Assembly (NCBI GenBank): GCA_947034885.2
Contig: OX344749.2
Location: 39,399,682 to 39,463,681, forward strand
Direction: 5' to 3'
Source of the DNA: Thuidium tamariscinum
Lineage: Eukaryota > Streptophyta > Bryopsida > Hypnales > Thuidiaceae
DNA length: 64,000 bases
Shown: piece after piece, positions 31,609-53,794 of the stretch
Numbering within the stretch: position 1 is the first letter of the stretch
Layout of the letters: every line of letters starts with the position of its first letter
Position numbers and translations under genes: made by a program
Notes under the pieces: generated by a model
Seen by the model: the letters and a program-made list of their open reading frames with translations, nothing else
What the model was told of the DNA's origin: nothing
The model's database searches: none

Positions 31609-31620
31609 TTGGAGTGCGTG
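31609..31620 (+). repeat. target-site duplication, left
   Basis: TTGGAGTGCGTG, identical to 44175-44186 and directly abutting the element's left inverted end. Confidence 0.75.
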
Positions 31621-31926
31621 CGGGGTTGCTATATTGCGAGCTCAAGAGCATGAGCCCAAGAGCCTAGGAGCCTAGGAATTTTTCAATTTTTTTGGACTTT
31701 TTGAAAGTGGGGCCTAAGACCGTGGAGAAAGTTTTAGGGCGGTTAAGAAATAGGAAACAGATGAAGTTAGAACACCAAAGACCAGCAGAGGGCACAGAAA
31801 GCCTTGGAAGTAAGAAAATAGCAGTTTTACATTCAGTACAGTGATGGCTAATAGAAGTAAGTAGATAGCAACACAAAATATCATATATGAGTAAAGTGGG
31901 TTCAAAATCAGAGAGTCTAGGTGGGT

Positions 31927-34900
31927 CTAGGTACTACTAGAAGACCCTGATGTAGAACTCTCACCACTGAACGATAGATCACTGTCTGACTCTATAGCAG
32001 ACTCATCTACAAACAATGATACTCGTGGATCTGTTGTACGAGATCTAAAAGAAGGTTGAGTATCTATGGTTTGAGAATGCGTGGCTACTGCCTCAGCATA
32101 CACGGGTAACATAAAAGGTTTAGGAGGGCTAGGGAAAAACGTCGGTTTAGCAAAGAATGGTCGGGATGTCTGCATCTTCATTTCGGCTGCCTGCCTACAA
32201 AATCATGACACCAAATGTCAGATACTAAACAATGGGAACTCACATTGTCAAAGTATTAAAAAAAAATAACTTACTTACTAAAGCGCGAAGTCTTCTGCAA
32301 TTGACGAATTGGGACCACCTCCTCATCGTCAGCAATCGGGATAGGTGTAGAGCTTTGTGGAGTTGGCTCAGGAGCTGAAATGGGACGTGAGAGTGGAGCT
32401 AAAAGTGCATCAAAAATGCTCTTGTCAGCCTCCAACGCTACAATGTGGCGGCCAGTAGCCCGACAAGCGTAGATGCTGGCTCCTGCAAAATCCCAATCAC
32501 ATTAAAAAAAATAGGATATGAAGTTCAAAGATCAAATGCAAAAGACATGTGCTAGAACACTAAATAAGGTGATATACAGTAAAGAATAGAACCTGTAGAG
32601 GCTGTGCAATCCATGATGATGTCACCAGGCGAGGTAGTTCCCTCAATGATCATTTGCATGAAAGATCGTGCCTTTTCACGAGAACCACGCCATGGAATGG
32701 TACCATTCATTGCCAAATCCTCCTTCTCACAACAATTCAGTACAAGATCATCTCTGCCAATGTCAAGGTCGATAGCCTGGTGCGCTGGAACATGACGAAA
32801 TGTAAAGCGGGACTTCTCAGACTTCACATACAAGTTCATTTTGAAGCGCACAGTCTGCAAATCCACTCCAATACATTAGAATCAATGTAACATTTTCAAA
32901 TGGAAAAAAAATAGTCTATTTGAAAAGGCCAGAAGAACTTACCGTGGAAGAACGGTCCAGTGGATTGGTAAGACGTAGTCTGTTCCACACCATCCACTCC
33001 ATTTTCGATGTGAATCCATACTTCCGAGAGAAATCCAAAACATAAGATCGAATCTCACGACTCAGAGAGTACATGAGAACAAGGCCACCACCATCATGGA
33101 GGTAGTTCTCTGCGAAATCAAAGATCGTCTGTAGCCACTCTTCTGAAAACTTGTTCCAATTTGGAACAGAGGATGGCGGAATAGAGATGTTAGGGACAGG
33201 TAAGCCCTCAGGAACATCCACTATAATGAGATCAACTAAGGCCTGCTTAGTAATCACACCATCGAAGAAACGATCCTTGTCCAAAGCATGCTGCAGATAA
33301 GAGAAAACAAGGGACACTTTTAGCAATAATTTCATACAAGTTCAACACCAAACACAAAGAATTTCTCCACACTCACCCTTATACTATAAAGAAACAACAT
33401 GTTCATAGTTCAAAGCATTGAGTACATAGAGAATTACCTTTTCCAGAAGGGAGAGAACCTTCGTGAATGAAGCGGGGATAGGACCATCATCTGAACCAAG
33501 CAAATTGCTGAGAGACTCATTTAGAATGCATTCATCCACATTGGCATCCACAATCGCAACCGGAGCCAAAGTCAGATGTCCCTGTTGCATCTGAGATTTC
33601 GTGAGCGAGAAACCGGAGGAAGTGGGGTTGGCGGCCAAATCACTTGTTGCATGCTCCACTGGGGCAGCCTCCGCCTTGCGCTTCTTCCCCTTCTTCTTCT
33701 CTTTGCCGTCGTTCTTCGTTGTCTCAGCCAACTTGTCTCTCCTTCTCACCGCGGTGTCCTCAAGCTTCTTCTTGGCTGACTCCAACTTCTCCCCCTTCTT
33801 CTTATTCTCCAACTCCCGCTTCTTGATGGCCTTGTCACGAGCCTCACCTTCCAATCCTGAGAACTCATCCACCTCTGACTGCACAACAATACAGTCCTTG
33901 ACGCTCTGGAATAGGGCCACTTCCTCCGGTGCCGTAAAACCCTTGGTACAATCCAAGTACCAAGCACCCAGTTGAAGATGGCCGATTGGCCAAAACTTCA
34001 GTTGAGCGGGTGAAAACATACAATCCGATGATGTCGAGTCACGCCACGAACGCAAGAATGGCGGTAAATCGGACTTGGAGATAGCTTGCTTTCCATATAA
34101 TTCGAATGTGAAGTACCTAAAGAAGTAACCCAACGCATAAGTCAAGATCATACTCAAATAAAGACCATAGCATCAAACCTCATACTATGCCCATACTAGA
34201 CAGTGAAGAAGAGCAAAAAGAAATAGACATTAATTAGAACTTGTGATGGAATCAATAAACAATGATGCTTTTGTTATCTTCGGTTTAGTGAAAACGTACA
34301 TTAGATTCCAAAGACACTGCCTAAATATCAAATTCCAAATAGAGACTAGGGAAAATAACTGACATTGTAGATGAAAATGATGTAGAAGAAGTACCTGTAT
34401 AAGACCCGTCTCACGGCAAGAAGGGAGCCCTTATAATCCTTAAAGGACTCAGATTTCTTGAATGCCTCAGCTCCTTTAAAAACTCCAGGATATGAGTGTT
34501 CCCACAACTTCATCCTCCAATACTCGATGTAGTCGGAAAGAGACATTGGCTCAGCGGGTACGTCCATGTTCACTTCGATGTTGTCAGACTTCAGTATGCT
34601 GTCATACAACTCAAGAGCTGCATCCTCCAACTGAACACAAATTCGAATCAGATCAGGACCTCTAGGGAAATCAATGTTACTGGGCCAATTATTTAAGAAA
34701 CAAAAGCAATGAATCAGATATGCTTACTTACCCCAGCAAACCAAACCGCCTTGGATAAGAAGGAACCAATCTTGTCATCATTAGCTGGTCTGGGTGGAAC
34801 ACGACGAGCTTCACGAGTAGGGGCGGATGAATTTATCCACTTCAACCACTTCACCTTGTGTTGTGGGCTCGCATTGGCAGTAGCAATAAGTTGAAGTTTG

Positions 34901-37900
34901 TCTAGCGTCAACTCCTGGACACTGTACAAACTCCAGTGCCTCTCAATCTGCAAGCATAAGCCCACACATATGAGAACAAAAATAAATATAGAGAAGCCTA
35001 AAAGGTTGCACGAATTGTAAAACGAAAAGAAACGAACCTCCTTCAGCCAGTCATCTCCCAATGCAGGATTAGCAACGGACACAATTTTTGAAAGCTTCTT
35101 GTAAAGCTTGTCCGTGGCATCCTTGGTTGCATTTCTCATTGCATTTGCAATACCAGTCTTAGTAACATCCTCCGGGGCCGTGTCCTCACGATACTTGCGA
35201 ACTCCAGCATCTGAGGCAATAGATATCTCTTGCTGCCAAACAAAGAAGTCCTGGGTCAAATGAATGCCAAGAAATGATGCAAATTCAAACACCAATGACT
35301 CTACAAACTAGACAGCAAACCGAGAAAACACAGTGTGTTATGTCGAACCTGAAAGATAAATGTGGTGAAAACCTCCAACGGCATCGTATACCAAGTCTTC
35401 TTTTGGGCATGGCCGCCACACAGTTTAACGTCCTCGGAGCTCAAAATCTCGGAAAACTTCTCAATGGACATTGTTCCATACTTGCGAACACGATAGAGTG
35501 TATGGACAAGATTCGTCTTCACGAAGGAATTCTCCGTGTGCCTTCAAAAACAAACACACTGTAAGTATTCCAAATGGATAAAGTATATCTAAATTCAAAG
35601 AAGTGATAAAAATATAAGAAAACTCACTTGTTCACATCATGCATGACTTGCATTGCTGCCCCAAGCCTATCTTTCGTGTCCAAAATGATGGAGTCCACCC
35701 GAACGTGCCACTTAGCTTCTCCACTGTGAAGCCTTTTGATATGCCGCATCCAAGCAGCATATCTGTGATTGCCGTCGCAAATGTAAAACTTGGCATCAAC
35801 CAAGTGCTGCAACTCAATGTGACTACTGAGTTCCTTGTTAAACTCAGCATTCACGTCATTCCAAATCGGTCCCCATCCGATCTTCTCCTCTTCAGAGAAC
35901 ACACCTGCCTCTCCCTCTTCATTTGAGACAGAAACATAGAATACTCTAGCTCCGTCTTCGTACCCGTGAACGAATTTCGTCTCTAACTCGTCCACATCAC
36001 AATCCAGGGTAGGTCTTACCATCGGCATGGGGACCATACGACACAACGGGATCGCCATTCGGGAGAGGCGATTAGGAGAGATTCGCATACTCGCTATTGT
36101 TGAAATTGAATCAACATTCTGGGACCTGCGAATGTGGTCCTCATCTTCAATGGCGGGGGCCGGCACTGGGGGCAATTGACCGCTACACTCTATTGAATCC
36201 TGTGCTCCAGCAACAGTGGAGGAAGGACCCGAGGATGCATTGCAAGTAGTGTCCATCTGACAATTCAAATAAATGGGTGATGCCCAAATCAGCAGAGTGT
36301 AAGAGATGGCAAGGTCCTGCCTCCGAGAAGGGGCTCTCGGTGGCGAGAGGGCCCCTGGTTGCGCGTCGGGAGACAAGGGGTGGGGTGTGACTGCCCACCC
36401 CGGCGAGCACGAGCTGATTCTAAAATAAAAAATTTCGCAACAATCTGTCTGGTCTCGGGGGCTCTCGGTGGCGAGAGGGTCCCCCGTGGTGCTCGGTGCG
36501 AGGCGGGTGGGGTGTGATTGCCCACCCTAGCCGAGCACGAGCTGATTCTAAAAGAAAAAATTTCGCAACAATCTGTCTGGTCTCGGGGGCTCTCGGTGGC
36601 GAGAGGGTCCCCCGTGGTGCTCGGTGCGAGGCGGGTGGGGTGTGATTGCCCACCCTAGCCGAGCACGAGCTGATTCTAAAAGAAAAAATTTCGCAACAAT
36701 CTGTCTGGTCTCGGGGGCTCTCGGTGGCGAGAGGGTCCCCCGTGGTGCTCGGTGCGAGGCGGGTGGGGTGTGATTGCCCACCCTAGCCGAGCACGAGCTG
36801 ATTCTAAAAGAAAAAATTTCGCAACAATCTGTCTGGTCTCGGGGGCTCTCGGTGGCGAGAGGGTCCCCCGTGGTGCTCGGTGCGAGGCGGGTGGGGTGTG
36901 ATTGCCCACCCTAGCCGAGCACGAGCTGATTCTAAAAGAAAAAATTTCGCAACAATCTGTCTGGTCTCGGGGGCTCTCGGTGGCGAGAGGGTCCCCCGTG
37001 GTGCTCGGTGCGAGGCGGGTGGGGAGTGATTGCCCACCCTAGCCAAGCACGAGCTGATTCTAAAAGAAAAAATTTCGCAACAATCTGTCTCGTCTGGGGG
37101 GCTCTCGGTGGCGAGAGGGTCCCCCCAGGGTGCGCGTCGCGAGGCGGGTGGGGTTTGACAGCCCACCCGATCGGAGCACGAGCTGATTCTAAATCAAAAA
37201 TTTCGCAACAATCTGTCTCCGCCTGGGGGCTCTCGGTGGCGAGAGGGCCCCCCAGGGTGCGCTTTTCGATGCGGGTGGGGTGTGACAACCTACCCGAGCA
37301 CGAGCACGAGCTGATTCTAAATAAAAAATTTCGCAACAATCTATCTCCGTCTGGGGGCTCTCGGTGGCGAGAGGGCTCCCCAGGGTGCGCGGTGAGAGGC
37401 GGGTGGGGTTTGACAACCCACCCGAGCACAAGTACGAGCTGATTCTAAAAGAAAAACAAGGGTTTGAGGTTCAAATCTCATACCTCGAGATTGGGAGGCT
37501 CTTTCTCAATGGGCGGAGAAACTGTGGCCTCCGTCCTTGCAATAGCTCCACTCCGTGTCTCCATTGTAGCTACGTCGTCAATCTGCAAGATGTGATTGTC
37601 TCATTAGAAAGACGCACGAAAACATCAATCAGGAAGTGTGCTTTCGGAAATGAGAATTTCGCAATGCCTCAAATAGTTTGAATGGGGGAGTTACAGAACT
37701 ACAGAATGAATATCCACACAAGGAGGAGAGATGGACGACGTGAGGGTGAGATGAAATTCGATTCTCAAAATCGGTAGCTTTCCTGAGGGGAAGCTGGAGG
37801 GACGGGGCTCGGAGGGTCGGAGGCGAGCGGTGGACTGCGAATGGAGGAGTCTGTCCTCCAAACCCTAATCGGGGTCCCGTCTGGCTCGAGCCGGCGGGGT

Positions 37901-38430
37901 CCAATTTTTTTTTAATTTTTTAATTTTAATATTTCAAGAAGAAATAATCATTCCTTCTAAATTATATTATCACGCTAGTTTAGAATACCCTAAACACTGT
38001 GAAGACCGACTTAAATATGAATTTGCAATGTACATAGAAATTAGACCATGTTCAATAGCATGAGGCAGTACATGCATATCTGGAATTCAGTAATGTGGAA
38101 TTGGTGAGAAAGGAAACTTACATTGCATGGTTCAGTGTTGTTGCCGTTGTCATCCTTTCTAGGAGAGAGGAATTCGGGAAGACTACTGAATCGAGGGAGT
38201 AGATCATTGTCAATGTTTCTATCAATTGAAGTATCCTCCGGATTGCCAATGATATCTTGTCCAGAAGTCGGTGTTGTCTGAGCCAGTATGAGGTGTCTGC
38301 GCCTATTTTCACGAGACATTTTCAAGGACTTCAGACTACTGAAGCAGCGGCTCATTCCCCTCTTCCTCTTCTTACCTACACTTTTTCTACTGCATTCGGC
38401 ATTGGATTCAACTATCATTATGCCTCTCAA
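31927..38430 (-). CDS. ParB-like / beta-class DNA methylase-like fusion protein carried by transposon
   Basis: Twelve exons with consistent phases: 38122-38430, 37484-37582, 35628-36256, 35349-35541, 35038-35250, 34732-34947, 34395-34630, 33438-34116, 32943-33290, 32593-32854, 32275-32482, 31927-32194, giving 1220 codons. If exon 38122-38430 is not used, the ATG at 37562-37564 gives about 1110 aa. Domains: a basic N-terminus (GKKRKRG); a ParB/sulfiredoxin-like region with DGNHRYAAW (residues 297-305); a helical middle region; a Lys/Glu-rich coiled linker with KKKGKKRK; then a methylase fold. In that fold a motif-IV-like DLIIVDVPEGLP (about 879-889) precedes LHDGGGLVLMYS and a C-terminal motif-I-like GDIIMDCTASTGASIYACRA (from about 1052) with IVALEADKS. 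That order is the beta class (N4-cytosine/N6-adenine type). DVPEG instead of (D/N/S)PP(Y/W/F) suggests lost or altered catalysis. ParB-methylase fusions are familiar in bacterial and phage mobile DNA. DNA or repeat binding is inferred. Confidence 0.75.
36305..37452. repeat. 128-bp tandem array, about nine copies, in an intron
   Basis: The landmark GCTGATTCTAAA recurs at 36413, 36541, 36669, 36797, 36925, 37053, 37182, 37310 and 37439, so the period is 128-129 bp. Copies from 36541 to 37053 are nearly identical, while edge copies have diverged. Each unit holds two stem-loops: GGGGGCTCTCG with CGAGAGGGTCCCCC, and GGTGGGG with GCCCACC. Read on the minus strand each also carries TTTTTTCTTTTAG, a good 3' splice-site look-alike. 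The array fills nearly all of the intron 36257-37483 of the ParB/methylase-like gene. Confidence 0.95.
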
Positions 38431-39297
38431 TAAAAGCTACACTCACGCAGGTAGTGAATAACTCGTGACGTAGTGTTGGATACATGTCTATTGTAGCCTG
38501 TGTCTAGGATCTTGAAAATGAATCATTCCATAGTTTGTGACTATGATTTATATGTCTGCAGATTAATGTTGCCCGTTAGTGCTCCAAGTACTAATAATTG
38601 AGCGCCGGATTTCATTTGATCTTATAATTACGGTACGAGTCGTTTGGGGTGTAGATTCAAAAATCACCATTGTTATTGCATTAAACAGACATATTTATTG
38701 ATCTTTCTTTTCAAAAGACAATCTTGTTTATAATTTTTGGTTTCTTGATTCCTAAGAATTTCCCAACGGATTAGTTGATCTACTATGATATAACTATATA
38801 TATTTTAGTTAGTTATATGTTGATTTTCTATTGCTCTAGGAGAAGAAATATTATCAGATTCTTTTCTGGATTTGTATGTATTTTGGATCCACTCGATGTG
38901 ATTTTATTCTAGGTAATTCTGACGGTCTATGCAGGTACATGTATTCATTATAGGAAGTTCGGTGACCTACTTGGATATAGAACTCAATAAGCTTAATTGG
39001 CCTATCAGCACATACCTGGCTGACAAGCCCAATATAACAAGATTTTATTGCATGATATTCATTTATTCTTTAATGCTCGTCAATACTACTTTCATGGGAG
39101 TTTGATCTATTTAATGTCAGCTTTCCCAGATTATCTTATGAGAGTTCCATGTTAGAATATTATGGAGACATTCTAGAATATCTTGGAGACATTCTAGAAT
39201 ATCATGAGCTTAAAACCAAACCGTCTCAACTTCAAGTCATGCTGCATCACATAGAAGACTTCATTTAGTTTTTATTTTCCAACACTGTGTTGATGCA
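38431..39297. promoter_or_regulatory. shared divergent promoter region of the two transposon genes
   Basis: The 867-bp gap separates the start codons of the minus-strand ParB/methylase-like gene and the plus-strand transposase. It is AT-rich and contains a short direct-repeat cluster at 39152-39210. No confident TATA box was assigned. A divergent layout would let one region control both genes. Confidence 0.5.
39152..39210 (+). repeat. triplicated 21-bp motif upstream of the transposase
   Basis: Three head-to-tail copies of TTCTAGAATATCTTGGAGACA-like sequence (about TTAGAATATTATGGAGACAT, TCTAGAATATCTTGGAGACAT, TCTAGAATATCATGAG). Each contains the palindrome TCTAGA or a variant. They end about 90 bp before the transposase ATG and could be binding sites for an element protein or a transcription factor. 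Confidence 0.6.
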
Positions 39298-42200
39298 ATG
39301 GCTTCTATCAGAGCAAATGGACACGAGGTCCCACTTCTTCTTTGTCTTGATTCCTCTGGCTTAGCTGATGTTTCAAGCCACTTGCTTCATGTGCGTTATG
39401 GTTTTGTTGAGTCTTCAATCTATGTAGAGAAAGAAGTACAGTCGGAATCCGGGACGCTTCTCCACTCGATTCTTATCCGTAGAATTAGAAATGAGGAAGG
39501 CTCTTTCTGGAGCTTAGGTGCTGGACGTTATAGGGCATATGGATTAGTAACAGAAGTCATGGATGCTTCAACAGAGGTTTTGATGCCAGTGCCTGTGGCC
39601 GACGCAGCTTCTATTCCTAGGTTGCGAGCCGTCAAGCTGGAGCCTGATGGACTCTCCCCCTCTTCTCTTCATTTCGGTCTTCCTTCATCAAAGGATGATG
39701 AAGGAAGCTTCTCTTGTCCTGTTGTTGTGTTGTCTAGTGATTCAGAGGAAGACCCAGTGAAGTACAATTGTCTCCTATCCGAATCAGAAACGGCTGGCAC
39801 TTATGTGCACCTTGGAACACCTGAATCCGTTGGTATGCGAGATAGTAGTGCTGGTAGTTCAGTGTTCTCTCGACCGCCGTTGTATCCACAAGAACAAGGC
39901 AGTTCGAGTGTTATAGACTCTCTGAAGAAGCTACGGACTATTCGAGGATGCAGAAACGAGCTCGCCCAGATTGATTTTGATTCGATTGAGCACAAGACAG
40001 TTCCATTTCTTCCAACATCATTTGACGGTGATATTGTCCTAGAATTGCCACCTTGCCGTTCATTACCTTCGTCAAGCTCTTCGAAGAGTATGGCTGGTAT
40101 GGACAAACGCTACGATGGTCATACGTGGTGTCGCACGATGACCTCAAACATTCACAATAATCTTGGCCTCAAATTCAGGAAGTCTTCATGTGTTGGTCAC
40201 CTTATATGTACCAACACATCTTGCGATTACATATCTAGGTGCTCTAAGAGAAACGAGACTGAGTGGATGGGTAATACTAGTACTCCGTTCCTCGTAGGGT
40301 CAATTCCACCACGAGATTCCACTTTAGCTTGTAGAGTTTGTAAAACTTCACCTACCTGTGTCAGTTTCTGTGATGCTAGGATCTACTATGTTGTAGGATC
40401 ATCTCATATGACCCGGGCTTGCATTCATCTAGGCAATCATAACCACCCAGTTCCAGATGGTCTTTGTCGAGATTCAGTGGACACCGTTTCTAGCCTTCTA
40501 GCAAAAGAGGTTGCAAAAACACCTACCGCTAAAGCCTCCGCCATAGCTTTAGCTGCTAGCAAGGAATTCTTGGATACTTTTTTGGTTCATTCAGGTGATT
40601 CTCCGAAGGAAATGTTGAAAGGCCCTGCCTTGGATGCAGTGATGGACAAGTTCCAAGTCTTAAGTTCTCCAAACGTTCAGAACATCATTGCCTCTTTCCG
40701 AAGCAATGGAAGCGGGGGAGGTGAAATCGACCGCTTACTTGCAATGAAGAGGCAGGCCAAGATCGAGTTCATTCACGACAGTGTATTTCCCGGACAAGGA
40801 CAAGAAAAGGTGTACCTCTTCAAGATGCTTGTGGACGGCCCTGGAAGTGGAGTCGATCTTGTGAAGCGCATGCAACCAGGTGGGGATCTGGAGAATTGTT
40901 GGCTTATGTTTGACCATGTGAAGCGTGTCAAAGGGTGGACTACAATCGCTTGCCATGTTTATGATTCAATTTATTGCAAGGTGATGACTATAGCGGTTTG
41001 CGACATGCAATCCGAGGACACGGAGGGCCAAGCCATCATGTGGAGATGCTTGAATCGAGTTATGGGGAAAAATGGCTTGGACAATCCCAACTTCAAAGGC
41101 TTCATGGCAGATAGTGCTCAAGCAAATTGGAATGCTGTTAGGATCGTTTATGGGTCCGGTGATGCATCCATCAAAATGGTTGATAGAGAACGCACGTGCC
41201 TTTTCCACTGGGCAACTTCTTTGAAGCAGCACACGGAACGACTCATCAAGAGAGATATGCAAGCTCAACACGTGAGGTTGTGTAGAGATTACAAAGATGC
41301 AAGGACTCTAGACGAAGCGGAGAGCAGGTATCTTCAAATCAAGGCATGGTGGTATTCGTCTGGTGCAGCCTCTGAAGAGTCGTTGAGAGAGCTAGAGCTT
41401 TGGTTAGCTTTTTGGCACTTCCGTTATCGCCAATGGGGTGGATTCATGGAGACAGTAAGTAATTTCTTTTATTTATTTATTTTTTTTCAATGTCCATTTT
41501 GTCTTTATCACAACCTTAGTTTCTAGATTTTCAAACATTAACTATTCTTACTTAGTGAAATTGTCCCTCAGTTGTAACTGGGATCTTCATCTGAATCCTG
41601 TCTCGCTACCGAGAGGACGTCGCTATAGGGTTTTGGTTGCCCATTTTGTAGCTAGTATACAACTCTCGTCTTATTAAAAGGGCCCTTAAGCCCTTTGTGA
41701 TTGATTGACGTTGCGGCCCTGGCCCCCCCCCCTCAACCACAGCTCTAAACTAAAATACTTATATGTACTCGGTGGATTTGGTTTTTCCTGTATCTATAGT
41801 CAAAAGTATCTACGATGTCTCGGTACAGTCCTTTCATGGTATTGGCTGAATGATCGTCCCTTCTTTAAATTGGATATTTTGGTTGTATTATATTATTCTC
41901 ATTTTCCACTCTTATTAACATGGCCTATTTCTGTACTTCCAGAGTTTGTCAGCAGACGAAGAAGCAGATATTCCATCCTGCAACCTATCGGAAACGATTC
42001 ACAACAAGTGGCTTCAAGCATCTGGGAAACGTGGTACCGACTTATATGTTGCCACTTGTGACGATTGGATTCGAGCATTTATGCAAATGACTAATTATCG
42101 CGTGTATCTGAATGGTGGACCTTCTGGAACTGGACCGTCCCGACATGATCTAAAGTTAAAGCGAGCAGTAGCATCTATGGACGGGAAGAAGATTGTTGAT

Positions 42201-43316
42201 GCATTGTGCAGTATGCCTGGTGCGGAGGAACTGTGCACACGTGTACCCCATTTAGAAGGGGAGGAAGTCTTCGGCTCCACAAAGCGCAAGCATGATGAGC
42301 CTATTGGATCCGAAGGTGATTCCCACCGCCCAGATAAGGTCAATTTCTCTCACCCTAGAGTACAATTGAAATCTAGCACTGCTCTGAATGCATCTACAGA
42401 TGATGGAGCTCCAGTGTTTCCTCATGCCATGCACGTATTGGAGACGGACTGTGACCCTTCACAGTGGCACATTGCTCGCATTTCCGTCAAATCCAAGAGG
42501 AAGTGCCATGCCATTCAAGCACAGACGGAGGTGAAGTGCAAGATGTCCATAGTTCGAGGTGCTAAAGCCGTTGCAGCACCAATGTATAAAGGTCAGAAAC
42601 GTGAGTACAAAGGTACGAATGTTGAAACAGATGACTTCTGGTTTTGTCCAGACGACATTCAACGTTGCGTTATGGGACCTAGGAGGTCTCATGTCCTTAC
42701 TCGCCCTCAACTCCCTGAAATCTGGCCTGTGATGTTGGGTACAAGTCTTACTTCTCATGAGATTATACTTTTTGAAGAGGCTGGTTTTCGCCTTCAAGAG
42801 AGCCCATCATTGTCTCCACGTCGCTTGTTCACATCTTCGAGACTTTTCGAGGTTTTGGAATGGAACTATTCAAAGGCAGCTCACTCCGACAAGCCTCCTT
42901 GCATTCGAAATGGAAAAAACATTCGGAGGAATGATAAGGCGCCCACTAATGATCACCAAAATCAATGGGAGAGTGCAAGAAATGTCACGGGCAATATCCT
43001 TGGAGTGAACATCCTCCCTTATCCAGGCCTTGGAGCTGTTATCACTTTACAGTCTGGTGTAGAACCTCATCACATGGTATATCGTGTCACTATTTCAAGT
43101 TTCCCAGCTTGCACTTGCTTGTACTTCATTGGTATGTTGTCTGCATCCATTGGCAAGAGAGGGAAATATGTTAACTGCAAACATTTATATTATATTTTTC
43201 GTTATTTGTGCAAGGTTGACCAAAAGAAGGACAAGTTCATTCACGCCCCTAGCTTTAGCATGGATGAGATTATGACACTACTAGAGAAAGCAGGAATGAT
43301 AAAAATTAAGGTCTGA
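39298..43316 (+). CDS. MULE-type transposase with SWIM zinc finger
   Basis: Two exons, 39298-41454 and 41943-43316, joined in phase 0 to 1176 aa. N-terminal third: unknown, with a SUMO-interaction-like VVVLSSDSEED at residues 142-152. Middle: Cys/His-rich region (CVGHLICTN, CRVCKTSPTC, HLGNHNHPVPDG) like the WRKY/GCM1-type DNA-binding fingers of MULE proteins. Then the RNase-H-like core with CWLMFDHVKRVKGWTT, FKGFMADSAQANWNAV and CLFHWATSL. C-terminus: SWIM finger CxC...CxH at Cys1109, Cys1111, Cys1131, His1133. The frame is intact. The neighbour on the other strand and the inverted ends place it as the element's own transposase. A domesticated FAR1-like role is the alternative, less likely given the target duplication. 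Confidence 0.85.
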
Positions 43317-44174
43317 TTTAGCAGTACTAGCATTCAGCACATCTATACCGGATTATTAGAAAACTCTACGCCATCCATGATTGTATGTAGTACCGGTACA
43401 ACTATAGAGGATGAGTATCTGTCCCTCATGAAGTCTTTGTAGGCCTTCATTTGTACTCGGTTTTCAAGAAATATATCTTTTTCTGTATTGAATACCCTTT
43501 TTTTCTAAAACTCTTATGCCCTTTCATTGTAACCTCCTAACCCTAACCCTTGACCTTAGATTGTATGATAGATTTATGATGAATTGTTTTGAACCACTGA
43601 TTACTCTATCAATTGCGTGCTTGCTTTCAAGTTGCTCAAGAACCCTAAGCCAATAAATGTCATTCTCCTATTATCTGTATTTTATGCTACACGGATTCCA
43701 AAAATTTTGATTGGTTATTGAAGCCCTAAACCTGAAATTGAGGGTCATTCTTTCATAGCAGCAAAAACAGTGCTTGGAAAGTTGGGAGCTCTTTTAAATT
43801 TAGTCCAATATTCAATCAACGGATTGTTTGACATTGCAATCATCTCACATTCTTTGCCTTTAATTCTATATCATAGGAAAAAGTCTTAAGTAAAAGGTGT
43901 CCAAGAAGTAGTATATGTTAATAGGTTTTAGACCCTAAACCCATGGTTCCAAGTCCACGGTTTTAGGTCCACGGTTATAGGATCTCTGTCACACCCTAAA
44001 CCAATGAACTGGGGGTAGATATATACTACTCGGATCACCTTAAATCAACAGTCCATTGAATTTTTTTGGGAATATTGAAAAAAATTACAATTTACTTCGA
44101 CTAAATATCTAGGCTCGCATAATGTACGCTCACAGCTCTCAGGCTCACGCTTTTAGGCTCACAATTTAGCGTCG

Positions 44175-44186
44175 TTGGAGTGCGTG
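44175..44186 (+). repeat. target-site duplication, right
   Basis: TTGGAGTGCGTG, identical to 31609-31620 and directly abutting the right inverted end of the 12.55-kb element. Confidence 0.75.
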
Positions 44187-46207: not shown

Positions 46208-46244
46208 CCTAGTTGTATACTAATTGTTTCTTAGTTGTAATGTA

Positions 46245-46480
46245 GTTGCTTACTAGTTGAATTTTAGTTGTAGGATAGTTGAATGCTAGTTGCACAATAA
46301 TTGACAACTAGTCACATAGTTGCATAGGAATTGCATGATAGTTGTGCAGTTGCATAGTAGTCACATATTAGTTGCACAATTGCATAGGAATTGCATGATA
46401 GTTGTGCAGTTGCATAGTAGTCACATATTAGTTGCACAATTGCATAGTAATTGCACAGTAGTTGCACAGTCGCACAATAG
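46245..46480 (+). repeat. 60-bp minisatellite in CACTA subterminal region
   Basis: A 60-bp unit (GCATAGGAATTGCATGATAG, then TTGTGCAGTTGCATAGTAGT, then CACATATTAGTTGCACAATT) is present twice almost identically from 46322 and continues as degenerate GTAGTTGCA-type repeats on both sides. It looks like expansion of the CACTA element's own subterminal repeat. Confidence 0.8.
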
Positions 46481-46710
46481 TCACACAAGTAGTAGTCAAC
46501 AACTATAATAAACATTGGATGTAGAATACCTTACAATTTTTTTTCTTTTTCATTCTCGTAACCCTAAACTTCATTTTGCAACTACTTTGCAACTACAATA
46601 ATGTAAACATCAATTTGGTGCAAATATAAAAGGTTGTAGTTGCCCGGCAGTTGCATAGGACATGTAGTTGCATTGGAGTCGGTTGTAGTGGATACATTTT
46701 TCTTCTAGTG

Positions 46711-49474: not shown

Positions 49475-52393
49475 GGGTGATTGCAAGAAACACTTCACGT
49501 TTTTGGCTCAAACATAGTACTGGTAGTACTATGCGATTCTAACAATCTAGTACATTTGACGTGCACTTACAAATCCCAACTCACTAGTAAAAAAACAAGG
49601 TAATTGTAACCACCGGAACAATGACTTATTGTCCGCAGTAACTAAATAGTGACTACAGTTACTGATTTGACGTAGAAATTGCCCACGTTCGCAAGTTCAA
49701 TCATTCTGTAGTCATTTTTGGATAGCGCAGAGTAGAAATGGATGAGCATCCGACCAAACAGTAGCTCTATGAGCAGGTCATTGTTGGAACTTTGTTAAAA
49801 AAGCCATGTTGGAATGAACGCAGTCATGGGCTAGTCATTTAGAAGCCATAAAAAAATGGTTTGGAGATGGTAATTACTGTCATATGACTTCACTTTCACT
49901 TGATTGTGGATTTGGGGTAATATTTTTAGTTTTCAAATTTTTTTGGGCCTTGGAGTCAAGTTTGAAACATGGTTATGACACCTAGATGGATTAGGGTTCA
50001 ATTAAATGGACGCATCAGATTGCTTCCTTTAGAAGGGGCTTAGATGAACAAATCAAATTTTCAAAAGTGCTTGAGATGGATGGATCAAATTGACAAATGA
50101 AACTTCATCTTCACAACAAAATGATGGTTCAAGATTGCATCTCTAAAGAATTGAATAGCTTAGATTTTAGGGTAGCCACCACATTTTAGGGCAGTTGCCA
50201 TCTAGTTTAAGGGTTTTAGGCTTCTATTTCTATGAAAACTAATTGCAGTCATTGTTTAATCATACAATATTCATTTTTTAGTCATAGAACAATCATTCAA
50301 CAATTATAGAGTATATTGTGACGTGGCAGCAAGAGATTTCAGTTGTATTGTTAGAAATGAATGGTAGAGATTTTGTCTCTTCCCTTTGTAGTTAGGGATT
50401 AGGCTAGCCACCACCATTTTAGGTCATCTTCTTTTCTTCTTTTCTTCTTGATTATGAACATCTTCTTCATTTTTTCCTCTTAGTGTAGAGGTTTTGTTTG
50501 TTGTAGACTGTAGAGGTGTTGTTGGCTTGTTGCTATATAGAGTTGTTGTTGGCTGTAGAAGTATTGTTGCTGTAGATGTGTTGTTGGCTGTAGAAATGTT
50601 GTTGTTGTAGAGGTATTGTGGAGGTGTTTTGTTTAAGGTTTAGGGGTAGTTTTGTTGTTGTAGAGGTGTTGTTTTGTAGTTTTAGGGTTTGTTGTTCACT
50701 TGTTCTACCATTTTGTTGATATGTAGTTTTAGTAGTGGTGGTGGTGGTTTCAATTGGTAGTTTCAATAATTTTAGTCTAGTGTTTTCAGTGGAAAGAGTT
50801 GGTATTTCCAGTGGTTTTAGTCAAGTGTTTTCAGTGTTTTCAGTGTTTTCAATGGTTTCAGTCTAGTGTTTTTAGTATGTTTAGTGTTTTCAGTCTAGTG
50901 GTTTTGTTTTAGTCATTGTTTTCAATGTTTTTATTGTTTTGAGTCTAGGGTTTAGTTCCAATCATTGTTTTCAATCTAGTTGTTTAGTTCAGTCATTGCA
51001 TAGAATGTCGCAGACCACATCGTTTTTGCACCAGTCATTGAATGTAACCATCACAGGCATTCCCCGAAGGCCATTCAATGAGTTTGAAATGACCTTCCTA
51101 GTCATTTATCCTTACGACTGGAGTATAAAGTGCACTCAATGAACACTAAGGAATGACTACAATAGAAAATATAGCCTGCCGTGCACACTCTACAAAATAA
51201 ATGATTACTTAGTGATTAGCTTGGAACTCACTGGGATAGTCACACTTTGCCCACACAAATATGGCACATTCATTTCTTGGTCACAAACCAATAACATGGC
51301 GGTACACGACCCCAAACAAAGTAGTCATTCATAAGTTTTTGGACATGAAAATGACTGCAGATTCACTCAAAAATGACTTCATAATCGCTTAGAAATGACT
51401 AAGCCATTACGCTGCATGCATCATTGTAGTTATTGTTTAGTCATCTAAAAGCCCAGTAATTGCCTCCTAAACCACCTACGTGGCATCTATACTCATGTGG
51501 AAAGTGTCTCAGATCGTCTAGGTCCTAAACCACATCAGCTAAATTGGGGTAATGAACTTTTTTCAAAGGACAGATGAGGAACAAACCCCCAAGTCCAAAA
51601 TGATCCAAATGTCCGCAATGACTTGTCTAGTATGACTCCAACCCCAGAATCACTGCAACAGTCATAGACGCTATTTTTTGTCTGGAATAACTAGAAAAGC
51701 AATCATTTGCGTCAGTCATTAAACGCCTGTTTTCTACTAATGACTACCGATTTTGGGCGCCAACAAATTTGGGCCGTCAGTTCAGTACTATGTAGTACTA
51801 TGCAGTACTGTAAACTTCTACAAAGTACTTCACAGGCTAGTACAGGCCCGGCTACAAGGAGTAGAAAATAGTAGAAAAAGGGTCTTTGGACCTTTTTATT
51901 TTTAATTAGTCAAAAAATCAAAAAATTATTTTAATTTTTCTAATTTTTCTAAACAAAATTGTGCTCACATTGCAACAAAAAATTCCTTTGAATTCTTTTT
52001 TCCCTTTGCATAGCATTTGTGCAAAGGAAGGTCACTTTGACCCCATGTAGACAATAGACATTTTACTATTTTCATAAAAACTCATTGTAAATCCTTGAAA
52101 TGTTAGTAGACCTTCAACTTGTCCAATTTGTGGCTTCAAATTTGGACTTTTGAGTCAAAAATAGGACTACCCCCCCCCCAAATAGCGAAGGTAGACAGCC
52201 AATTGGGGGCAATTTAAAAATATTAAACTAATTTTTAAAAAATTAAAAAAATTACACAACAAATAAAACTTTTTTGTGCACCTTCGATCCAAATTTCAAG
52301 CTGATAGAGCAAAATATTCAAAAGTTATAAGCAAAAAAATACCTAGTAGAAGTCAAGGGGACAAAAAAGGACAAGTATTTCTTGCAATCACCC
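49475..52393. mobile_element. GGGT-family element, copy 2 (interrupted)
   Basis: Left end GGGTGATTGCAAGAAACAC, right end inverted GGGTGATTGCAAGAAATAC. Flanks are TGTT and AGTT, three of four bases shared. Removing the CACTA insertion and its duplicated ACT leaves about 755 bp, in line with the 729-813 bp of the other copies. It sits inside the Pif1-like pseudogene. Confidence 0.8.
49582..51742. mobile_element. CACTA-type element, 2.16 kb, ACT duplication
   Basis: Starts CACTAGTAAAAAAACAAGG and ends CCTGTTTTCTACTAATG (inverted end with small changes). ACT is duplicated at 49579-49581 and 51743-51745. Many AATGACT/AGTCATT subterminal motifs occur in the outer several hundred bases on both sides. 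No transposase frame remains. It is nested in GGGT copy 2. Confidence 0.82.
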
Positions 52394-53794
52394 AGTTCAC
52401 AAATTTTGTTGGAACCCTCAATATAGTGATGGCATATTGGAGGTAAGTGAGCCATGTCTCCCACCAACAACAACAACTTAGATTCAAATGGATAATTGTT
52501 TTTACTTAAACTTATTCAACTCATGAATAAATAGCATTCAATATGTTGCTTGTCATCATATTCATCTCGTCAATGATAAACACATCAACCTCTTTTAACC
52601 TCTAAATAGTGATATTGGATTGGCAAAGAGTATATAACTAATCATGTACATGAATCCTATACTGTGTATAAACTATAGTTGATGTGCTAAACATCGCCTT
52701 GCTATTGGAGCAATTATTCTAGATAAGAGCACCTTCTTGTCCAAGCCTTGTAAGTAATTTGTTAAATATTGATGTAGAAGTTCTTTCCACTACTTGGTGT
52801 GCCTTCCAAAAAATGAATTTCCTTCAATGAATTGCACATTTCATCAAATATCCATTGTTGTTCATCAAATAACAAAGTTGATTGCATCTTTGCTTTAAAA
52901 TTGTGATTAAAACAACTTTGTTTGATTGCCCCATTCATATCAAAAGTCTTGCTCATGTCATTCACTTCAAATGCTCCAACATAATCAAGATCTAAATAGG
53001 AATGATTCTCAAGGAGATTATCCAACAAATTTTCTTGTCTAATTTCATCATATAGATTTCTTTGTGTATATTGAAAAACATAGTCTTTTAGTGATCCTAA
53101 ATTTGAAAGGTATCCCCTAATCCTATACTCTGAAACATATGATTGCTTCACATTAATTGGTGAATAGAAATCACCTTCACTCTTAAAAGCTACATGTTGG
53201 AGAAGTACATTATAGAAAAAGGCTTTTGTATCTCTCATTGGAGAATAGTCAGTAAACCAAACTACTCTATTGTTATAATACAGATAATGTCCAAATTCAT
53301 CTCTTTCTAAGACAATTTTTTGATCATACATGGTCTTCACTATTTTATAAGCCTTGTAATATTCTTTAAAACTACAACTTTCAAACTCAATAGGTCTACC
53401 TATATAGTGGTCAATAGGATGTAACGAGAGCATCCGTGATTTAGAATTAATAGATCTTGAACGCATTTTGGGCAACTTTGAGTCAATATACACAACTTGT
53501 TCACTTTTTCTAACAATTGGTATTTGAAGACAAGTAAGAGAGGCTTCACACAACATTATAGGCTTTGCCAAAATGGTCGCTACAATAAGTTCTAGCTCAA
53601 TTTTTGACACATTCTCTGAATGATTAATATTAACCTAAATGTTTTGAATTATTTTTATGAATTTCACAGATCCTAGAGGTTTTCTTTCAATTGTATACTT
53701 TAACAAGTAGAAAGACAAATATGAAGATGTTATTTGTTGAATGTTTATGTGTGCTCCCCATATCAATAATAGTGTTGCATGATACGGTACAATA

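Follow-up and report, generated by a model that had tools for sequence, protein, structure and literature searches.

Among the closest described systems to the element reported here are algal transposons. In the relevant passages of PMC12477816, the brown-algal transposon Sola1-1_Ec32 (Ectocarpus) encodes, opposite its transposase, a protein combining a ParB-like part with a predicted N4C/N6A-methyltransferase; the authors cite similar proteins from transposons of green and red algae and raise the possibility of a new accessory-protein class. ParB-methylase accessory genes in algal transposons are thus already known. Another point of reference is the VANDALs of Arabidopsis, which are Mutator-like elements (MULEs) and for which parts of PMC5735166 and PMC10398659 report degenerate ends, a transposase more conserved than the second protein, VANC, and binding of VANC to tandem repeats in noncoding or intron sequence that differ from copy to copy. 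Passages of PMC12730594 describe TET/JBP transposons of fungi and SET-carrying MuDR/Harbinger elements of oomycetes, DNA transposons that likewise carry a gene for a chromatin- or DNA-modifying enzyme. Here we describe a 12,557-bp element in 64,000 nucleotides of Thuidium tamariscinum DNA (assembly GCA_947034885.2, contig OX344749.2, positions 39,399,682 to 39,463,681 of the forward strand), a stretch that we call the window and number from its first letter. The element is a real, multicopy and recently mobile DNA transposon with two divergent genes, one for a transposase and one for a methylase-like accessory protein. With about even confidence, we read it as an autonomous, recently active, MULE-like cut-and-paste transposon whose accessory protein would be a former methylase turned DNA-binding anti-silencing factor. 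Its features are as follows.

31621..44177, unstranded: whole transposon, 12,557 bp, delimited by the boundaries common to copies
31612..31620, unstranded: left target-site duplication GAGTGCGTG, 9 bp
44178..44186, unstranded: right target-site duplication GAGTGCGTG, 9 bp
31621..31664, plus strand: left terminal inverted repeat, matching the right end at 30 of 44 positions; it is degenerate and carries subterminal repeats of GAGCC type
44134..44177, minus strand: right terminal inverted repeat, ending in TTG and overlapping a 14-bp tandem repeat at 44128-44163
39298..43316, plus strand: transposase gene, exons 39298-41454 and 41943-43316, 1176 amino acids
31927..37564, minus strand: methylase-like gene, 11 exons, 1104 amino acids, its stop codon ending at 31927
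Minus strand: methylase-like exons 1-6, 37564-37484, 36256-35628, 35541-35349, 35232-35038, 34947-34732 and 34630-34395
Minus strand: methylase-like exons 7-11, 34116-33438, 33290-32943, 32854-32593, 32482-32275 and 32194-31927
36330..37456, unstranded: 128-bp tandem array of 8.8 units within intron 1 of the methylase-like gene
35753..35779, minus strand: putative ParB/DndB-like motif CDGNHRYAA (residues 187-195) in exon 2, from weak profile matches
33207..33218, minus strand: DVPE (residues 768-771), aligned to DPPY of DpnA
32593..32611, last bases in exon 10 (to 32481), minus strand: DCTASTG (residues 941-947), altered motif I, aligned to DPFMGSG of DpnA

Evidence of mobility comes from searches of the genome (363 Mb, 19 contigs). 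With 92 bases of the left end as query, 40 of 48 candidates were scored and all 40 were matches, placing this end in at least 40 places; eight such loci, the window included, all break off sharply at 31621, with different flanks beyond it. Sixteen copies were fetched (L010, L012, L014 and L016 are continuations rather than separate copies, L017 and L018 were completed with further sequence, and L019, with 739 bp aligned, was excluded from gene analysis). Six of the copies are full length beside that of the window, measuring 12,822 to 14,075 bp, and their long alignments are ~97-99.7% identical to the window element. Target duplications of 9-10 bp are exact and mutually different in six of the seven full-length copies (GAGTGCGTG in the window, TTCTTACAA, ACTCCATGGC, CTTCAATAG, AGGCTAAATA and ATTTGCAAC); that of the seventh, at C6:15.16M, matches at 6 of 9 positions and may have decayed. 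The joined outer flanks of all seven were also searched against the genome, with 40 of 7415 candidates scored. Matches spanning the junction were obtained for three insertions. For the flanks of the copy at C2:0.80M there are 39, of which 38 are 91-95% identical and the remaining one 86%; the flanks of C6:24.69M have one at C3:14007414 and those of C6:27.99M one at C6:27970653, both at 94%. With match lengths such as 221 for 221, 224 for 223 and 221 for 220, a second duplication cannot fit in, and three of the seven insertions therefore have paralogous empty sites; for the other four, no match spanned the junction among the 40 of 7415 candidates scored, which says nothing either way. A preliminary description of the window had proposed a transposon and had suggested looking for dispersed copies with the same ends, both genes and different duplications. 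Seven full-length copies with these ends and both genes exist, six of them with exact and different duplications, and with the empty sites they support the proposal.

The copies also refine the ends. The exact 12-bp direct repeat first noticed, TTGGAGTGCGTG, does occur at 31609-31620 and 44175-44186, but a target duplication of 12 bp is ruled out: the right end ...TTTAGCGTCGTTG recurs in 7/7 full-length copies, the window copy included, making its terminal TTG element sequence, the duplication 9 bp and the right boundary three bases further out. The TTG preceding the left duplication is a coincidence. The left end CGGGGTTGCTATATTG is likewise found in 7/7 full-length copies, and the sequence outside it differs between them. 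Compared from their termini, the two ends match in register at 25/36 and 30/44 positions; the 28 of 36 reported initially applies to the best-matching 36 bases, which lie seven bases in (31628/44170) without a change of register. Among 200,000 random pairs of 36-mers from the window, none reached 26/36 and the maximum was 23. Subterminal repeats occur at both ends.

The element is likely MULE-like, although its original assignment as a MULE stands only in part. Its duplications fall in the MULE range of 8-11 bp, and like MULEs it has terminal inverted repeats, here degenerate. The catalytic core of MULE transposases has the order D, D with a following N-A, CxxH, then E, which is seen in the genome's own MULEs recognized by PF10551, the Pfam MULE profile. 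The transposase has candidate D, D-x6-NA and CxxH motifs in that order, with CxCx19CxH, a possible SWIM finger, at residues 1109-1133; a candidate catalytic E, proposed by eye, lies in exon 2. In Table 1 of PMC6446971, as far as that source was seen, the groups with a stated length all have 8-11 bp duplications. On the other side, PF10551 finds no match in the transposase protein or its core. The hidden Markov model comparison (hhalign) with an alignment of the genome's MULEs places FMADSAQANWNAV..CLFH on IIDK..LNAI..CWFH with a score of 17.3 that is not significant (16.1 reversed, 13.9 shuffled), and the SWIM profile scores E 0.17, weaker than its cut-off. The structure model of the transposase core is poor (predicted local distance difference test, pLDDT, 49). 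PF10551 matches elsewhere in the genome number at least 33, none inside the element, and the Pfam-recognized MULE transposases that share the genome (L029-L048) are clearly different from this transposase family.

The pairing of transposase and accessory gene is old. It was followed with long queries, returning the best ~40 loci, and short queries, returning the best 150, out of 576 to 2266 candidates overall, and a partner that is not listed is not thereby absent. With long queries, 31 transposases reach 89% identity or more; for 26 of them a methylase-like gene is listed no further than 40 kb away, always on the opposite strand (26/26), and the eight transposases below 89% have no partner among the matches listed. 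The short query with the transposase core gave 150/150 matches (best 150 of 657 candidates). The two short methylase queries gave 150/150 each (best of 576 and 614), at least 273 loci combined after 27/150 of the second query were removed by hand as repeats of the first. Divergent pairing within 40 kb was seen for 81/150 scored transposases, whereas 200 trials with rotated methylase positions averaged 4.2 and never exceeded 15, and 81 of the at least 273 methylase-like loci are paired. By core identity, 41/42 transposases at 92% or more are paired, and the 42nd (C11:9135540) has a partner at C11:9143016 in the long-query list. The best-150 lists give 6/7 at 81-91%, 18/29 at 72-78% and 16/72 at 64-71%, the figures at lower identity being underestimates because only the best matches were listed. 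The methylase-like gene is therefore, as first supposed, a gene of the element, inherited with its transposase.

The two genes have not evolved at the same pace. Compared with the window, the pair at C2:40.55M/40.57M is 90% identical in the transposase core and 47-64% in the listed methylase exons, and the pair at C1:30.84M/30.85M is 81% and 42-57% identical, respectively. As in VANDALs, it is the accessory gene that changes more quickly. Separately, methylase-like loci are concentrated on C11 (17.5 Mb of 363 Mb), with 47/150 loci of the second query where ~7 are expected (p 2e-25, best 150 listed); C11 is possibly a sex chromosome or one rich in repeats.

To place the accessory protein, we relied on spliced proteins, as a Pfam scan of single exons gave almost nothing. 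Residues 743-977 match DpnA (5hfj, E 3e-6) and CcrM (6pbd, E 2e-5), and the alignment with DpnA runs in order through the two halves of the methylase domain. We take these two to be beta-class N6-adenine methylases. The Pfam profile N6_N4_Mtase matches at E 8e-4, weaker than the curated cut-off, and the NCBIfam CcrM profile at E 2e-6, far below its cut-off. The gene's probable ancestor is a beta-class DNA methylase of bacteria or phages. Viral contigs yielded no relatives of either protein, and phage records gave weak partial methylase matches (68 records, best E 4e-3 among 15 listed). Of the original label, ParB/methylase-like, the second half holds; the first comes down to weak matches on one GNHR motif (DUF1015 at E 0.0024, DndB at 0.026 and 0.0064, a ParB-like PHROG at 0.016), and a ParB-like part is a lead rather than a result.

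Active amino-methyltransferases have a motif IV of the form (D/N/S)PP(Y/F/W). At this position the accessory protein reads DVPE, unchanged in 16/16 aligned copies, and four diverged relatives at ~36-50% identity read DVPE (L051), DVLE (L052), DCPE (L053) and DCPE (L054); none of the five versions fits the pattern, with E replacing Y in 5/5 and the third-position P kept in 4/5. Stops are present in L051 and L052, and L053 and L054 are represented by pieces without stops. As the altered motif is common to relatives this distant, the change is old, and in sequence terms it argues against ordinary adenine methylation.

Both genes have been under selection. The two divergent intact genes noted initially are borne out as gene models, with predicted introns that are all GT-AG, and 7/7 full-length copies lack stops in both. 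Alignments to the methylase-like exons were obtained for 15 further copies, without exon 1 in L021 and L022, and the exons of full-length copies are 95-100% identical to the window's. Nine older copies have one to three stops each in the methylase-like gene. Relative to the window, the ratio of nonsynonymous to synonymous substitution rates (dN/dS) of this gene is 0.16-0.31 in 9/9 older copies, with dS of 0.055-0.35, and that of the transposase, partly readable in 4/9, is 0.22-0.41 (L025 was excluded from the transposase alignment for its stops); these values include neutral decay after insertion, which raises them. The low ratios indicate that both genes were kept working through earlier rounds of transposition, and the accessory gene was thus retained by selection despite its altered catalytic motif. 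The methylase-like gene of L013, the copy at C6:15.16M, is 95% identical to the window's in exon 2 and 99-100% in the other exons, with dS 0.042 and dN 0.0035 for the whole gene, a pattern suggestive of gene conversion or of recombination with a different subfamily.

Traces of the host can be read in the mutations of the copies. C-to-T changes on either strand in the nine older copies amount to 298/3792 at CG (7.9%), 353/4062 at CHG (8.7%) and 735/18520 at CHH sites (4.0%), with T-to-C changes at 811/34409. A similar tendency is seen in the six young copies (CG 21/4086, CHG 31/4356, CHH 27/20651). Methylation of silenced plant elements at CG and CHG would leave such an excess of C-to-T, and the bias fits methylation of the element by its host. 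The intron array also varies between copies, with 8, 20, 11, 13, 10, 15 and 12 seed units in the seven full-length ones. The long open reading frames of this minisatellite were ruled out as coding sequence, since the array sits in intron 1 between GT-AG sites.

We propose that the transposase moves the element, making target duplications of 9-10 bp, and that its second gene arose from a beta-class methylase of bacterial or phage origin, which may have included a ParB-like part that binds DNA. Selection would have kept the encoded protein through many rounds of transposition while DPPY changed to D-[V/C]-P-E, leaving what may now be mainly a sequence-recognizing DNA-binding factor. Its targets would be the element's own repeats, either the 128-bp array of intron 1, with its varying number of units, or the GAGCC repeats near the ends, where the bound protein might counter CG/CHG methylation by the host, as VANC does for VANDALs. 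More tentatively, the system may be an independent VANC-like invention, a catalytically dead and fast-evolving anti-silencing factor that targets the 128-bp array and has diversified over many families (at least ~270 methylase-like loci). An anti-silencing role would make this a second solution, unrelated to VANC, of the same problem and a source of sequence-specific DNA-binding proteins, and with so many families carrying diverged proteins, coevolution of protein and target could be tested within one genome.

Several observations weigh against an anti-silencing factor of this kind. An altered motif may not mean lost catalysis, the ParB-like assignment is weak (its best E value, 0.0024, is to DUF1015), and the structure model of exon 2 is poor (pLDDT 41). 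The 128-bp array could be an ordinary minisatellite, and the mutation counts take the window in place of the ancestral sequence. In the six young copies dN/dS relative to the window is erratic, 0.08-0.86 for the methylase-like gene and 0.17-0.72 for the transposase, a scatter that is uninformative because their dS is mostly below 0.01. A methylase-like gene lies within 40 kb in another orientation or on the other side for 11/150 transposases. Finally, ten transposases of 73-77% core identity (C2:5.71M, C3:12.0M, C10:5.79M, C1:34.79M, C8:4.95M, C9:2.81M, C5:0.13M, C8:14.36M, C6:9.52M and C10:8.05M) have no such gene within 40 kb among the matches listed. The core is free of stops in 8/10. They may form a sister family lacking the accessory gene, which may then not be essential.

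Other roles for the accessory protein have to be set against this reading. It might be a second subunit of transposition, binding the ends or assisting assembly without any part in silencing, as the divergent arrangement in 81/150 scored transposases, the selection on both genes and the subterminal repeats at both ends would allow; that some transposase families seem to be without it, among the matches listed, and that it diverges faster than the transposase make this somewhat unlikely. An active if unusual N6-adenine or N4-cytosine methylase, marking the element's DNA with, for example, a permissive mark opposed to cytosine methylation, is also unlikely in our judgment, even with homology across both domain halves, D and the third-position P of the motif kept in 4/5 versions and a brown-algal relative that passages of PMC12477816 present as a predicted N4C/N6A enzyme. 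In 5/5 versions glutamate stands in place of the aromatic residue of DPPY, and DpnA's motif I, DPFMGSG, is aligned to DCTASTG.

Explanations in which the gene does nothing for a transposon fare far worse. MULEs can capture pieces of genes, and the accessory gene might be a host passenger captured as in Pack-MULEs, which are mentioned in the part of PMC12477816 seen; for an 11-exon gene that is under purifying selection and common to many element families, we regard this as highly improbable. That the copies are segmental duplications of a two-gene host region has the plant-like introns in its favor, nothing further, and a probability close to nil, as it is refuted by exact boundaries, different 9-10 bp duplications and uninterrupted empty sites.

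Set beside the described systems, and returning to an anti-silencing factor as the favored reading, the element shares with Sola1-1_Ec32, as that element appears in passages of PMC12477816, an opposite-strand gene in which a bacterial-type methylase domain would be joined to a ParB-like part; both proteins have 1104 amino acids, a coincidence as far as can be told. The carrier there is a Sola1 element, whereas here it is MULE-like with 9-10 bp duplications, and the predicted N4C/N6A enzyme there contrasts with the altered DPPY here, a comparison made by description rather than by sequence. VANDALs, as far as PMC5735166 and PMC10398659 were seen, have in common with it degenerate ends, a fast-evolving second gene and copy-variable tandem repeats in noncoding or intron sequence. 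However, VANC has the domains DUF1985/DUF287, for which the 1104-amino-acid protein gives no Pfam match at E up to 1, an effect on methylation is shown for VANC and proposed here by analogy, and VANDALs are MULEs whereas the element here is likely MULE-like. The likeness to VANC thus suggests a possible way of working, not membership. The TET/JBP and SET transposons differ in enzyme family and host, and in the present element the active site is altered. DpnA and CcrM resemble the accessory protein in the collinearity of both domain halves with DpnA and differ in having DPPY and DPFMGSG for DVPE and DCTASTG; the protein here is spliced, with long extra regions.

Judged by titles, the beginnings of abstracts and passages, the literature searched holds no same finding in a land plant; the part of PMC12695648 seen has nothing on ParB or land plants, and the terms sought do not occur in the Physcomitrium paper PMC7466625. 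As far as searched, then, the carrier, a MULE-like element, the selection on a gene with an altered motif, the array in intron 1 and the scale are new, and transposon-borne ParB-methylase genes are extended from algae to a land plant and a MULE-like carrier.

Elsewhere in the window, a 290-residue open frame on the minus strand (52762-53634) contains the string LEGTPSSGKN, presumably a P-loop-like motif, and has no Pfam match; a Pfam scan of seven other open reading frames of the window gave no match. Downstream of the element, short tandem repeats with periods of 9-60 bp form clusters at 46210-46485 and 50538-50998.

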